From positions 1 to 34,466 of the forward strand of contig JANQEK010000026.1 of assembly GCA_028278405.1 (NCBI GenBank): a DNA stretch of 34,466 nucleotides, read 5' to 3'. The position numbers were made by a program, and so were the translations under genes. Source of the stretch: Nitrospinaceae bacterium. GTDB lineage: Bacteria; Nitrospinota; Nitrospinia; Nitrospinales; Nitrospinaceae. Under the pieces are notes generated by a model, which was not told where the DNA came from, made no database searches, and was given only the letters and a program-made list of their open reading frames with translations. This document shows positions 4,103-18,376 of the stretch, piece after piece. Position 1 is the stretch's first letter, and each line of letters starts with the position of its first letter.

Positions 4103-4882
4103 TCAATTCTTTCCCTTGCGTGCAAAAAAATAGAACAGTTCCCAGTTCGTATACACACCCTGCGGAGATGAATACTCCTTGTCGTAATCCCGGATCAATT
4201 GTCTCAGTTCTCCAGGCTTCAAAATTCGCAACGGCGCAGCCCCAATCTGCTGCAGGTTTTTGATCAATGCGTTGGTATTTTCAAAGAATATCTGACGCGT
4301 TTCAGTCTGGAAAGTCTCCAATTCAAACCCCGCCTGAGTGAGAAGGGTTTTCCATCGCTTTTGAGAGAGGAGATGCGTGGGTCCCTGGAACTGAGCCGTG
4401 CTACGAAATTCTTCGAGAGTTTTAGGACCAAATGTGCTGAAAGCCAGGTATCCCTCCTTTGCAAGGCAAGCGTGAAATCGCTGCAGCGTGTTCTGGGGAT
4501 TTTGGAACCATTGGAACACCGCGTTTCCCGCAATGAGATTCACTTTGGGAATCTGAATGCGCTCGGCATTTCCCACAAGAATTTTTGAATGAGATGGTAT
4601 ATCCAAATGACTTTTCAAATGTTCAATCATAAGTGGTGCAATATCATTCAGCGTAATGACTGAAGGAGAACGCGCCAGAAGATGACGGGTAAACACACCG
4701 GTTCCGCATCCAATTTCCAGTATTTTTTTGGGGAAGGGGTTGGGAATCAATGCAGCTAGGCGTTCGGCCATTGAGCGCTGGAGTTGGGCATGTCGATCGT
4801 AAGTTTTGACATGTTTCGAAAAACTTTCAATGATCCTTTGTTCGAAGTCAGACTCAGAGGGATTAGGGGAGTTTCCGGGCAT
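4103..4882 (-). CDS. bioC: malonyl-ACP O-methyltransferase BioC
   Basis: A 259-residue methyltransferase that, in the BioC-BioH biotin pathway, methylates malonyl-ACP so that the fatty-acid synthase can build pimelate. The N-terminal FSKHVKTYDRHAQLQ segment is typical of BioC, and the SAM loop LEIGCGTG lies at 55-62. Length matches the family. I chose the ATG at 4882; a TTG three codons upstream directly follows the TGA of the preceding gene (TGATTG) and could also be used. It is the last gene of the biotin operon, abutting the DUF429-kinase gene. Context with bioF and an esterase gene makes BioC far likelier than a generic methyltransferase. Confidence 0.9.
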   Translation of the reverse strand: MPGNSPNPSESDFEQRIIESFSKHVKTYDRHAQLQRSMAERLAALIPNPFPKKILEIGCGTGVFTRHLLARSPSVITLNDIAPLMIEHLKSHLDIPSHSKILVGNAERIQIPKVNLIAGNAVFQWFQNPQNTLQRFHACLAKEGYLAFSTFGPKTLEEFRSTAQFQGPTHLLSQKRWKTLLTQAGFELETFQTETRQIFFENTNALIKNLQQIGAAPLRILKPGELRQLIRDYDKEYSSPQGVYTNWELFYFFARKGKN

Positions 4883-4891
4883 GGTGGTCAA

Positions 4892-7147
4892 TCAGAAGAG
4901 ATCTGTCGACCGCCTTCTTTCGGGCGGAGTGAATGGAATGACTTTGGCCGGCAATTGGACCGTAAAGGTTGAACCTTTGTTCATTTCGCTGCTTACGGCG
5001 ATGCTTCCTCCCATCATACGGCAAAACCGCTGGCTGATGGCTAACCCCAACCCGGTACCGCCATATTTGCGGCTGGTGGTGGTGTCTGCCTGGGTGAATT
5101 CGGAGAAAATTGATCTTAGTTTATCTTGAGGAATACCTATTCCTGTATCCACTACTTTAAAAACAATCCATGGAGTATCCTGCTTTTTGATACGCGTGAC
5201 TTCCAGGGTGACTTCTCCATTCTCGGTAAATTTGTTGGCATTGCTCAACAAATTGATTAGCGTTTGCCGAACCCGGTTCATGTCCGCTACCATATATCCC
5301 AAATTTTCGTCGCATTGTAACGTCAGGGTATTTCGATTCTTTTGAAGCATGGGCTCGATCGTATGCGTGGCCGTTTCAACAATTTCTTCTATTTTAAATG
5401 AATCCAGATGGATTTCCATTTTTCCCGCTTCGATTTTTGATAAGTCCAAAATTTCGTTGATCAATTGCAGCAAAATCTTGGCGGAACTACCTATTTTTGC
5501 TAAATCTTTATGAATTTCCACCATATTTTTTTCTTCAGTTTCCTCTAGCAGCATTTCAGTGTAACCGATGATAGCATTCATAGGGGTACGGAGTTCATGT
5601 GTCATATTGGCAAGGAACTTGCTTTTCGCCGCATTTGCTTCCATGGCCATATCGCGCGCCGAAGCGACTTCCGAGTAAGCCTTCCGGATTTCATTGACCA
5701 AAGAAACATGAGTAATCGCCACCGCGGCCTGAGAAGCCAGAGACTGAATCCAACGAACATTTTCTTTGGAAAAGGGGACGATTGTTTTGGGCTCTCCGGT
5801 TTTTCTGGCATTCAACAATTGAATCACTCCAATGACTTCCTCGTCCTTGTTTCGCATTGGAACCAGAAGCATGGATTGCGTCTGGTAATCGAATTTTTTG
5901 TCAAATTCCAGGGAACCTGAAAAATCGTGATCCTCATATTTTCTAATATCAGGAATGTTTACGGTCTTTCCAGTCAAAGCGACATAAGTAGAAACGTTAG
6001 ATGGATTCATCTCCAGCGGTGGGATAAGAATAGGAGATTCGTCATTACCCCCCATACGTATCTCCAGGGTGTCATTCTGAAAGATTTTAAAATGAAGTTT
6101 GCTTTTTTCTAAAATGTACAATGTGCCGCCATCCGCATGAGTGAAGTTTCGAGCTTCTTCCATGATCATCTCAAGAAGAAAATCGAGATTGCGTTCGGCA
6201 GACAAGGCAAGGCCGATATCAGTCAGTTTTGTTAACTTGTCAAGGAGGCTTCTGATGATTTCCTCCCCATGTGGAGCCATGGCAGAGTGAGACTGCTTTC
6301 GTTTTTTGCCGTTTTTCGAAGCAATTGATTTCATAGACGGATCAACGATCCAGCCTTCTGACTGGATCAAATGCTTATTGACCGTTGGAATTCCATAATT
6401 CGGCTTTCCTTCCCTCCAGGCCCAGGCCGCTTGCAGAGAACAAAGCACCGCGTCCAAAGAATCTCCTTTGGCATCATTCAACATCTCACTTTTTAGTGAG
6501 TTCTCGATTGCTACTGAAAAACCAAATTCAGCTTCTGAATTTGAGTTCATAATTCCCGTAATAATCTTTTTTCTTGCTGATTTCTTTTGTGATGCATCGT
6601 TGCCTTCGCTCTTATACGCTTTTGCAAAGCGACGGGCTACGAGAGCCGGATAGGCCTCCAACACAATGCGGTTTCCTTTTTTGGGATTACAGGGAAGGAT
6701 TGAGGCCCCCGAATTCAAGATAATTTTGGATCCTTCATAGAACATCTTTGCGACCGGTGCATTGACCAGTTTTAAAGGACTTTGGGCAGACGCAAGGATG
6801 TCTGTAAATCGCAGTGGCTCCTTGTAAGGCGAGGAATGTTTCGATTTGAAATTTTTGACTTTTTTTTCAAACTCGGCTTTGGAACGACGGGTCAATTTTT
6901 GTGCATAACTCCGCCAATCGTGCGGTAACCCAAGTGTGGACAAAAAGGCGCCGGGCAAGCCAAAGGGAAAATCGATTCCGGCGATCCAGGGTCCTTTTTG
7001 CTTTAAAAAATCCTCAAACTCATTAAAGCTGTACAAATTGTGGATTTTTTGTACAGTCAGTTTCCCTTGTTTAAGGTCACCCTCCGCAACCGTTATGGGT
7101 TTCTTTCGGCTGGGGGCGCTGGTGAAATCAATTCCAAAAATCTTCAT
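4892..7147 (-). CDS. DUF429 domain fused to GAF sensor histidine kinase
   Basis: A 751-residue continuous frame with two normally separate proteins. Residues 1-270 are DUF429, a predicted RNase-H-like nuclease fold, with GIDF motifs at 5-8 and 57-60, EAYPA at 164-168 and GDSLDA at 228-233. A basic linker (272-290) leads to a GAF domain (about 315-480), then HisKA with the H box THELRTP (phospho-accepting His517), N box NLLSNANKF (632-640), G1 DTGIG (667-671), F box FSEF (681-684) and G2 GGTGLGL (696-702). There is no receiver domain and no membrane segment, so it should be a cytoplasmic kinase. Its ATG overlaps the TGA of the esterase gene (ATGA), and bioC starts at its stop, so it is inside the biotin operon. 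A cognate response regulator is not adjacent. A sequencing error merging two genes is possible but no frame break is visible. Confidence 0.85.
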   Translation of the reverse strand: MKIFGIDFTSAPSRKKPITVAEGDLKQGKLTVQKIHNLYSFNEFEDFLKQKGPWIAGIDFPFGLPGAFLSTLGLPHDWRSYAQKLTRRSKAEFEKKVKNFKSKHSSPYKEPLRFTDILASAQSPLKLVNAPVAKMFYEGSKIILNSGASILPCNPKKGNRIVLEAYPALVARRFAKAYKSEGNDASQKKSARKKIITGIMNSNSEAEFGFSVAIENSLKSEMLNDAKGDSLDAVLCSLQAAWAWREGKPNYGIPTVNKHLIQSEGWIVDPSMKSIASKNGKKRKQSHSAMAPHGEEIIRSLLDKLTKLTDIGLALSAERNLDFLLEMIMEEARNFTHADGGTLYILEKSKLHFKIFQNDTLEIRMGGNDESPILIPPLEMNPSNVSTYVALTGKTVNIPDIRKYEDHDFSGSLEFDKKFDYQTQSMLLVPMRNKDEEVIGVIQLLNARKTGEPKTIVPFSKENVRWIQSLASQAAVAITHVSLVNEIRKAYSEVASARDMAMEANAAKSKFLANMTHELRTPMNAIIGYTEMLLEETEEKNMVEIHKDLAKIGSSAKILLQLINEILDLSKIEAGKMEIHLDSFKIEEIVETATHTIEPMLQKNRNTLTLQCDENLGYMVADMNRVRQTLINLLSNANKFTENGEVTLEVTRIKKQDTPWIVFKVVDTGIGIPQDKLRSIFSEFTQADTTTSRKYGGTGLGLAISQRFCRMMGGSIAVSSEMNKGSTFTVQLPAKVIPFTPPERRRSTDLF

Positions 7148-7830
7148 GGCACCCGTTGGGAATAGGTGGGTTGAAGTGACGGTGCATCAGCCTCCTGCAC
7201 ATACTGTGATAGGTGAGCCAGTAATTTATTTGGAGCGTGATCACACCCGTCCACCAGAATCAATTGAGGAATGAGTTCTTTTAGCTGGCATCCGTCCAGC
7301 AATGAATCCCGCAACCCGGATATGGCGATACAATCCTGAGTTGCGTGAGGGACAACGCTGGCACTTTCCAGAAAATCAAGGCCTCGGATCAAGGTTTCCC
7401 TACTGAAGGGCGGATGAAGAATATCTTCAGGCTGACGAATTCCGCTCAAGTCAAAGAATCCTTTGAGAGAAGCCAGGTAGTCATCAGAAGAGTTCAGCAT
7501 TTTTTTCTGATATTTTAATTTTCCAAGAGGTGTTTTCCCGCCCAGGTTTTTCTCAGCAGGAAAGGCGAGAATAGGGGCCATCAGAATAATTTTTGTTTGC
7601 AGTGGAATTTCACTCTTGTGTGTCAGAAGCCAGAGACTGCCTAGAGAATAGCCGATAACCCAATCCGGTTGCGAATGAAATACTTCTGCGGCTTCTTCTT
7701 TGCTCTCCGGATTTTTCGGGTAGTAAGCCTGAACCTCCGCATTTGGAAAATAACTTTTCACCAACTGGCAGAACCACTCTTCTGAAAGTGCCCAGCCGCA
7801 AATGGCAGTTATCTTTATTTTTTTCTCCAT
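7144..7830 (-). CDS. pimeloyl-ACP methyl ester esterase, BioH/BioG type
   Basis: A 228-residue alpha/beta hydrolase. The nucleophile elbow is GYSLGS with Ser62, and the likely rest of the triad is Asp175 (GLRDS) and His198 (DGCDHAP). Its role, by family and by position between bioF and bioC, is to cleave the methyl ester of pimeloyl-ACP and so end chain building. It is shorter than E. coli BioH and diverged, so I cannot choose between BioH, BioG and another non-homologous-replacement subtype. Its start overlaps bioF by 16 bases and its stop overlaps the next start by 4, so translation is coupled across the operon. Confidence 0.8.
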   Translation of the reverse strand: MEKKIKITAICGWALSEEWFCQLVKSYFPNAEVQAYYPKNPESKEEAAEVFHSQPDWVIGYSLGSLWLLTHKSEIPLQTKIILMAPILAFPAEKNLGGKTPLGKLKYQKKMLNSSDDYLASLKGFFDLSGIRQPEDILHPPFSRETLIRGLDFLESASVVPHATQDCIAISGLRDSLLDGCQLKELIPQLILVDGCDHAPNKLLAHLSQYVQEADAPSLQPTYSQRVP

Positions 7831-8957
7831 GAGTTTAAAAGGCTAAAAATTTCATCCACCTCTTCTTCTTTAACATTTGCGTGAAAAGAGAAACGCAGAC
7901 GAGAAGAATTTTGCGGCACAGTGGGGGGCCGTACCGCTCCTACCAGTATTCCATATTCAAGCAATTTGTTGCGCAATTCAAGCGCATCCTTTGGCTCTCC
8001 CAAAATTATCGGTATGATCTGTGAGTCAAATGAATTTGTTTGCCAACCTTCGTTCGTCAATAGTTCCCTAAACCGAACAGCTGCATCGCGGATACTTCGA
8101 GCCGTTGTCTGAGATTTTTGAATAATCTTCAAGGCCGCTTCGGCTGCCCCTACTTGGGGTGGTCCCAGATAGGTGGAGTAGATCAACTCTCCTGAGTAGT
8201 TGACCAGATAATCAATGATGGTTTTGGAATTTGTCAGAACATAGGCTCCCATGCTAGCCAGCGCTTTTCCAAGAGTTCCGACGAGAATATCAACTTCTGA
8301 AAGTACACCTTGCTCCTCGGCCAAACCACCGCCTGTGGGGCCGAATACTCCGGTACCGTGAGCTTCATCCAATACCCAAATAAAGGTGTATTTTTTTTTC
8401 AGTGCTGCTATCTGGCGAAGGTCCGGATAGTCGCCGTCCATACTGAACACACTCTCAGTGACAACAAATATTGTTTCATTTTCATGGTTATGCCGATAAA
8501 GTAACTCCTCCAGATGACCCAAGTCCAAATGGTGATAACGTTTGAATCGGGTGCTCTGTTTTCCCAGGGTCTGGGCTATGGAATGATGAATCAAGCGATC
8601 GGCCAATATCAAATCCTGCGGACCCGGTAAATGTGTCAACAGGGCCTGGTTGGCTACGAATCCGGTATTGAATAAAAGGCCGTGGGATTTTTTTTTCCAA
8701 GTCTTCAGTTGACCGATCAGATGTTCATGGCAGGGCAGGTATCCCGAGAGTAAAGGAGAGGCGCTGCTGCTGGCTCCGTAACGCTCCAAAGCGGCTTGGG
8801 CTCCTTCAATAACCTGCGGATGCGAGCGCAACTGAAAATAGTCATTACTGATGAGATTGATTTTGCAAGCATCCAGAACCTCCAACGTCCGGAGAAGTCC
8901 CGTTGCTTGCCTTTGCTTCAATTCGCTTTGAAGTCGCAATTCCAGAGGTTGGGTCAA
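7815..8957 (-). CDS. bioF: 8-amino-7-oxononanoate synthase BioF
   Basis: A 380-residue PLP enzyme that condenses pimeloyl-ACP (or -CoA) with L-alanine, the first ring-forming step of biotin synthesis. It shows ISNDY near the N-terminus, DEAHGTG (197-203) and the PLP lysine in TLGKALASMGA (Lys231), all typical of alpha-oxoamine synthases. The start is a TTG: the frame closes with a TAA upstream and no ATG or GTG intervenes, and the next methionine is far inside the fold. It is the first gene of the operon; bioA, bioD and bioB are not in the window. Confidence 0.92.
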   Translation of the reverse strand: MTQPLELRLQSELKQRQATGLLRTLEVLDACKINLISNDYFQLRSHPQVIEGAQAALERYGASSSASPLLSGYLPCHEHLIGQLKTWKKKSHGLLFNTGFVANQALLTHLPGPQDLILADRLIHHSIAQTLGKQSTRFKRYHHLDLGHLEELLYRHNHENETIFVVTESVFSMDGDYPDLRQIAALKKKYTFIWVLDEAHGTGVFGPTGGGLAEEQGVLSEVDILVGTLGKALASMGAYVLTNSKTIIDYLVNYSGELIYSTYLGPPQVGAAEAALKIIQKSQTTARSIRDAAVRFRELLTNEGWQTNSFDSQIIPIILGEPKDALELRNKLLEYGILVGAVRPPTVPQNSSRLRFSFHANVKEEEVDEIFSLLNSWRKK

Positions 8958-8989: not shown

Positions 8990-9018
8990 ATTATGGTATA
9001 AAAGCATTTTCTTGTCAA
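8990..9018 (-). promoter_or_regulatory. sigma70-type promoter of the biotin operon
   Basis: On the minus strand a perfect -35 TTGACA (9013-9018) lies 17 bases from CATAAT (8990-8995), one mismatch from the -10 consensus. Transcription should start about 25 bases before the bioF TTG. I see no BirA-type operator palindrome over it, so biotin-responsive repression is not evident. Confidence 0.65.
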
Positions 9019-17362: not shown

Positions 17363-17626
17363 GTGAGTTGCAGAAAGGGAAGGGCGATTTATCCCTTTTG
17401 CCAGATTGTCGCTTTTGAGTTCATAGTCTTTTTCGGCTGAATTCCAACAAAAGATTAATCAATTAAGTCTTTAGAAATCAATTAGTTAGATTCCTGCTTC
17501 AAAATGACATTTGATTTTGGACAGTCAGCATTACGGACTTTTTTGATTTGTGGAAATGAGCAGGCACAGAGATTCAGTGACCGACTAAATGCTGGAAAAG
17601 ACTCAAAAAAAATTTTTAAAAAGTAC

Positions 17627-17655
17627 TTGTTGCAATTACATTTACTGTATATAAT
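17627..17655 (+). promoter_or_regulatory. promoter of the HTH-receiver regulator
   Basis: A perfect -10 TATAAT at 17650-17655 with a weak -35 (TTGTTG) 17 bases upstream. Transcription would begin near 17662, about 40 bases before the ATG at 17705. Its position excludes the earlier in-frame ATG codons as starts. Confidence 0.45.
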
Positions 17656-17704
17656 GATTGTGGATGAAAATTTAACCGGTTTACCTCTTCCTAATTTAGA
17701 ACTC

Positions 17705-18376
17705 ATGGATAACTCAAATAGCAAAAACAACAATAGCGAAGACCGCGTAACGGCCGCAGATATCCTTAAGGTAGTTCCGATAACCCGAAAAACGCTGTGG
17801 CTGTGGCAGAAGAAATATGACTTTTTCCCGGATCCGGTGAAGGAAGCTCACCCTGGAGGAAAGGGAATTGTCGGCTATTATCCTGCCTGGGTGGAGGAGA
17901 GGTGTAAACAGGTCTATTCTCTGCAAAAAAATGGGCACACCATATCCATGATCAAGGAAATCCTCAAAAAGGAAGCCGAGGACAAATCCACCAAGAAAGT
18001 ATTGATCGTGGATGATGAAAAGAAATTTGCCACGTTGCTCAAAAAGTTTTTTGTAAAAAACGACTATGTTGTTGAGGTGGCTTTTGACGGCCTGGATGCG
18101 GGACTCAAGGCCGCCCATTTTCAACCGGCCATCATTCTCTTGGATATCAATCTTCCCGGACTCAACGGGTTGGAAGTTTGTAAAAACCTGAAAAACAACC
18201 CAAGAACCAAGAATATGACTGTCCTGGTCATTTCCGCCAGCCTCCAATACACCGAAAAAGCGGTTCTCGCTGCAGGGGGAGATATGTTTTTCAAAAAGCC
18301 GGTTAATTTTTCCGAACTTCTCGATAAATGTAACGATGTGATTTCCACCAACGAGAAAATCACGATTCCTTCCTGA
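17705..18376 (+). CDS. MerR-like HTH plus receiver-domain regulator
   Basis: A 223-residue regulator from the ATG at 17705. Residues 14-88 form a MerR/AlpA-like winged helix (VTAADILKVVPITRKTLWLWQKKY ...), and 98-215 form a CheY-like receiver with acidic pair Asp103-Asp104, phospho-acceptor Asp147, Ser177 and Lys198 before a proline. The order is reversed from classical response regulators, where the receiver comes first. Phosphorylation by an unlinked histidine kinase is expected; no kinase gene adjoins, although an orphan kinase lies at 4892. Its gene is divergent from the tolC operon, a common arrangement for a pump regulator, so the pump is the first candidate target. The frame is open 67 codons further upstream, but that part reads poorly and contains the promoter. 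Confidence 0.85.
   Translation: MDNSNSKNNNSEDRVTAADILKVVPITRKTLWLWQKKYDFFPDPVKEAHPGGKGIVGYYPAWVEERCKQVYSLQKNGHTISMIKEILKKEAEDKSTKKVLIVDDEKKFATLLKKFFVKNDYVVEVAFDGLDAGLKAAHFQPAIILLDINLPGLNGLEVCKNLKNNPRTKNMTVLVISASLQYTEKAVLAAGGDMFFKKPVNFSELLDKCNDVISTNEKITIPS

Follow-up and report, generated by a model that had tools for sequence, protein, structure and literature searches.

Among the biotin synthesis genes of a Nitrospinaceae bacterium, one gene joins a DUF429 domain to a histidine kinase, which raises the question of whether the two halves truly form one protein and what such a protein would do between the genes of a biosynthetic operon. The gene was analyzed in a stretch of 34,466 nucleotides (contig JANQEK010000026.1, assembly GCA_028278405.1), referred to here as the window, together with its relatives in the order Nitrospinales and with DUF429 proteins of other phyla.

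The gene is a single 751-codon open reading frame at 4892-7147 on the minus strand, which also carries all other features of the locus described below, with its ATG start at 7147. The Pfam matches, all above their cut-offs, gave the domain order DUF429 (PF04250; residues 5-248, positions 6404-7135; 36.2 bits against a cut-off of 23), GAF (residues 321-478, 5714-6187; 58.5 bits), HisKA (residues 507-575, 5423-5629; 72.2 bits), and HATPase_c (residues 622-735, 4943-5284; 96.6 bits). The H, N, G1, F, and G2 boxes were intact in the window protein and in the relatives readable at these sites, as the preliminary description had stated for this uninterrupted frame. With the phospho-acceptor His517 (5597-5599) in HisKA and the N, G1, F, and G2 boxes in HATPase_c, the protein has the features of a class-I sensor histidine kinase. 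Its core is as complete as that of cytosolic GAF-HisKA-HATPase sensor kinases, from which it differs by the additional N-terminal DUF429 on a flexible linker.

Full-length homologues covering residues 1-750 without stops, with identities of 49-80%, were found at the same locus in four families of the order (f1, f2, f3, and f4), and two of them came from single-contig assemblies. An assembly or read error, or a stop missed in the linker, was rejected as the origin of the fusion: the same continuous frame recurred in more than 20 independent assemblies, including the two single-contig ones, so that a missed linker stop cannot generally explain the fusion. The fusion of DUF429 with the kinase is therefore genuine, and it is old in the Nitrospinales. 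Its novelty, which had also been proposed, was borne out within the sources searched. The titles and abstract openings of the open-access literature contained no report of a DUF429-histidine kinase fusion, those retrieved for a histidine kinase with bioC likewise gave nothing on such a fusion, and a one-motif search of genome contigs found none.

Two variants of the architecture were observed. The protein of genome G013 (locus L040), with 904 amino acids, has the order DUF429-GAF-PAS-HisKA-HATPase. In genome G014 (locus L041), a DUF429 protein of 282 amino acids stands alone, and a separate REC-HisKA-HATPase gene follows 4 bases downstream. We considered whether these were one fused gene split in two and rejected this, because the neighboring kinase is a different one, with 31% identity to the fused kinase versus 54% to another kinase of the order. 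Separate genes for the two parts in a relative had been named beforehand as an observation that would speak against the fusion. This one genome shows such an arrangement, but with a distinct kinase, and so leaves the fusion in the other genomes standing.

The gene is embedded in the biotin operon in the manner first described. Its start overlaps the stop codon of the preceding putative esterase gene by ATGA (GTGCCATGAAG), its own stop codon TGA (4892-4894) directly adjoins the opening TTG of the bioC frame, which also has an ATG 9 bases downstream of that TTG, and it is co-directional with the bio genes. The bioF (7815-8957; TIGR00858, E 4e-105, 351 bits) and bioC (4103-4891; TIGR02072, E 1e-52, 179.5 bits) genes matched their families well, yet slightly under the NCBI cut-offs of 426 and 185 bits, respectively. 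The intervening est gene (7144-7830) encodes a 228-aa alpha/beta hydrolase without a Pfam or NCBIfam family match, so its designation as a putative pimeloyl-ACP methyl ester esterase rests on its position between bioF and bioC in the order and on a GYSLG motif. This familyless protein is nevertheless kept throughout the order and is perhaps an undescribed BioH-type gatekeeper. A sigma-70-like promoter (TTGACA-17-CATAAT, 11 of 12 matching positions; 8990-9018) lies 33 bp before bioF and was conserved in six genomes of the window genus. In genus g2, a gene for a MetW-like methyltransferase lies between the fusion and bioC (L026:10099-10821), and a large protein that by eye resembles the DUF115 family is encoded after bioC (L026:11518-13563).

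This position would fit a regulator of the biotin operon that senses a pathway metabolite via GAF or DUF429 and controls the bio genes through a response regulator, replacing repression by BirA. The gene overlap within the bio operon holds throughout the order, the BirA of the window genome is a ligase of 262 amino acids, too short to include a DNA-binding domain as well, and searches for BirA-type operators across the window and for BioR-like sites around the bio genes found none. These observations define a gap in regulation, but they do not show that the fused kinase fills it. The position itself carries little weight, because the whole block MFP-LolD-MacB-pabB-pabC-bioF-est-fusion-bioC-OMT-TRX-TPR-DnaJ is syntenic across the order, with local rearrangements, and its functionally unrelated exporter and chaperone genes are as syntenic as the bio genes; long residence among the latter is thus weak evidence for a biotin role. 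No response regulator gene was present in the operon of the fusion, and no cognate regulator in the locus. Separately, a protein with a REC domain in its C-terminal half is encoded at 17504-18376 of the window, about 10 kb from the fusion and without an adjoining kinase, and is a possible partner.

The distribution of the gene bears directly on this regulatory role. An enzyme or regulator required for biotin synthesis would be present wherever the bio operon is, whereas est and bioC lay near each other without an intact fusion gene in the gap in 17 genomes (G001 and G024 among them). In G001, which belongs to the window genus, the est-bioC gap holds a scar that fuses DUF429 codons ~16-29 to the tail of the kinase, and the gene has accordingly been deleted there. 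G024 retains remnants of both gene ends between est and bioC, and stops interrupt the gene in G027 and G034, both draft assemblies, where sequencing errors may account for them. In several f2 genera, the absence of the gene may be either original or due to loss. The gene has thus been lost repeatedly beside persisting bio genes and is dispensable for keeping them, which speaks against the idea that the kinase serves biotin synthesis; one of the 17 fusion-less genomes even retains the same bioF promoter. Taken with a GAF domain of a type shared with other proteins, these losses make it unlikely that the protein is the biotin regulator outlined above. A biotin role is unsupported, and the genomic evidence points away from biotin manufacture and towards a putative accessory sensor.

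The GAF domain was 53-57% identical to the GAF domains of GAF-HD-GYP proteins encoded elsewhere in related genomes, which, unlike the fusion, have an HD-GYP output (a predicted phosphodiesterase) and no DUF429. Its best matches among solved GAF structures were the cyclic-nucleotide GAFs of the CyaB2 cyclase (1ykd, E 5e-17) and PDE5 (E 6e-14), as well as PDE2, and by eye the NKXnFX3DE motif of cNMP-binding GAFs has NA instead of NK at residues 446-447. With these relationships, the earlier suggestion that this GAF senses a metabolite of the biotin pathway is not supported. The full-length structural model was of low confidence (pLDDT 72, pTM 0.40). It predicted helices at 461-540 and 543-573, and thus a nearly continuous helical connection from GAF into HisKA (~461-573), and it showed the linker region 249-302 as disordered (pLDDT <50). 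From the long helix on one side and the disordered linker on the other, the kinase probably receives its direct input from GAF rather than from DUF429.

DUF429 itself could be modeled with confidence using AlphaFold2 (pLDDT 96.2), and a sequence search gave no solved structure for it. The best Foldseek matches in the PDB were a terminase nuclease, RuvC, and Ydc2; these matches were weak (E 0.03 or worse, low TM-scores), and the best viral match had an E value of 8e-4. Such weak nuclease matches agree with Majorek et al. (2014; PMC3985635), who placed DUF429 in the RNase H-like superfamily, a fold also predicted at the outset. Through its Pfam match and its conserved acids, the domain of the window protein belongs to the DUF429 family (PF04250; COG2410/COG4328/COG4923), whose members, unlike this one, are usually single-domain proteins. 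The putative metal-binding acids D7 (7127-7129), D59 (6971-6973), E164 (6656-6658), and D229 and D232 (6452-6463) are all present in the window protein, were invariant in 59 subfamily members from many phyla, and were intact in most of the fusion relatives. Several homologues with degenerate acids fell below Pfam detection for DUF429 but matched an order-specific profile.

The Nitrospinota DUF429 domains formed a single clade (UFB/aLRT 99/100), and the relatives retrieved from outside it were nearly all single-domain proteins, none of them fused to a kinase. DUF429 fusions with Nudix, RelA/SpoT, and a thiamine-pathway kinase have been reported (PMC3985635, PMC3153485). The RelA/SpoT type is represented by RelZ, also called MS_RHII-RSD (MSMEG_5849), of Mycobacterium smegmatis, in which DUF429 is joined to a (p)ppGpp synthetase (PMC3153485, PMC4429107, PMC7591505) and for whose DUF429 RNase HII activity has been reported (PMC4429107, PMC7591505). 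According to the published description, RelZ shares with the window protein an N-terminal DUF429 and a C-terminal signaling enzyme in one soluble protein, whereas its output is the synthesis of (p)ppGpp/pGpp and it has no histidine kinase, no GAF domain, and no biotin operon around it.

Because most members of the fusion family keep all of the DUF429 acids, DUF429 may be an effector enzyme in them rather than a sensor. It would then be an active RNase HII-like nuclease controlled by the GAF-kinase half, in line with the activity reported for RelZ and with scattered DNA-repair genes (Fpg/Nei, photolyase-related, ATP-dependent ligase) beside stand-alone relatives. We consider this effector role possible but rather unlikely, as the neighborhoods of the stand-alone relatives are otherwise not conserved and one clade has retained the fusion and an intact kinase after losing the acids, as described below.

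Several observations were made on the neighborhoods of stand-alone and otherwise fused DUF429 genes. Fpg/Nei glycosylase, photolyase-related protein, ATP-dependent DNA ligase, and microbial PARG genes occurred next to stand-alone DUF429 genes (L126, L134, L144, L112, L147, L120); these repair-gene neighbors, with Pfam run on one of the three Nei neighbors, hint at DNA repair. No bio gene family was among the recurrent neighbors at the loci of other phyla. At L083:8001-9457, L100:8001-9107, and L078:8001-9786, DUF429 is fused to DUF433, and in L083 and L078 a DUF5615 PIN-like gene follows, an arrangement that resembles a toxin-antitoxin pair with a DUF429 module. Among 10 cyanobacterial loci (Pseudanabaena and relatives, including L124:6131-8807) with both a stand-alone DUF429 gene and a Ser/Thr protein kinase gene, most have the DUF429 gene a short distance after the kinase gene. 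In Ktedonobacteraceae/Chloroflexi (L081, L084, L085, L087), DUF429 follows a gene for a small GTPase (matching an Arf-family model of Pfam in L085) as well as a roadblock-like gene.

The clade that has lost the acids comprises 10 genomes of the genera g4 and g14, whose DUF429 domains group together with full support (UFB 100, stem 0.73). In this clade, D7 is replaced by N in all readable members and D59 by N in most, D229 is replaced by A, S, F, or Y in all, and D232 by N or T in the g4 members, so that it is gone in most of the clade, while E164 is retained. The fusion with an intact kinase persists despite this loss. The dN/dS of these DUF429 domains was 0.04-0.11 in unsaturated pairs, values which are rough given the many high synonymous distances, and the domains with dead acids are thus under purifying selection.

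In the same clade the linker is conserved. Its identity between g4 and g14 was 0.74-0.87, with 0.58-0.64 for DUF429, compared with 0.17-0.40 for the linker (residues 273-300, 6248-6331 in the window; taken as 272-299 for the identities) within the window genus (g1), where it is nearly unconstrained, and 0.06-0.46 in other comparisons of members with intact acids. The pooled linker pN/pS was 0.09-0.14 in the dead-acid clade versus 0.69 in g1, and because synonymous sites were near saturation, the constraint in g4/g14 acts on the protein. An exception was genus g8, where the acids are intact and the linker is 0.69 identical for a close pair, so the contrast with g4/g14 is not all-or-none. The pattern was unexpected, was found while looking through the data, in one clade, and represents one evolutionary event rather than a replicated test. 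The most interesting of the results is the dead-acid transition together with this conservation of the linker.

The linker also bears on whether the two halves are coupled at all. They could have been joined by chance in an ancestor, each remaining useful alone, as the almost free evolution of the g1 linker, the separation of DUF429 from the neighboring kinase in L041, and the repeated loss of the gene would allow. Such an uncoupled fusion is very unlikely in our estimation, because a single frame has been retained across four families, the linker is strongly conserved in g4/g14, and even in L041 the DUF429 gene adjoins a histidine kinase gene.

The explanation that we favor, which we hold to be about evenly balanced between right and wrong, is that the fusion is an accessory soluble class-I sensor histidine kinase and not a biotin enzyme, with DUF429 as a tethered nucleic-acid or nucleotide module that is dead in g4/g14. 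The GAF domain, via the near-continuous helix to HisKA, would switch autophosphorylation of His517 in a dimer, and the phosphate would pass to a response regulator whose gene lies outside the locus. DUF429, on its flexible linker of ~30-45 residues, would bind or cut nucleic acid or a nucleotide, and may either bring a nucleic-acid signal to the kinase or be controlled by it. In g4/g14, it would now be a nuclease that is dead yet retained for its binding, with a firmer connection to the kinase. Ancestrally, DUF429 was probably a tethered module acting on nucleic acids, which in these genera probably became a regulatory domain with no catalytic activity. The place of the gene between est and bioC would lead to co-expression with the biotin genes, through which it may report on growth.

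A more specific proposal is a two-component system that reads the state of nucleic acids, in which the kinase is controlled by an RNase H-like domain that binds to RNA:DNA hybrids, branched DNA, or nucleotides, and in which the dead site and fixed linker of g4/g14 record the step from enzyme to sensor. We regard this proposal, including the recorded step, as distinctly unlikely; a nucleic-acid signal, if real, would be unusual as the input of a two-component kinase. The fusion is a real, conserved new architecture built of known parts, with a putative function. Since DUF429 is widespread and nearly uncharacterized, its conserved attachment to a kinase, whose output can be measured, would provide a handle on what DUF429 recognizes, and the dead-acid clade would serve as a natural experiment separating binding from catalysis.
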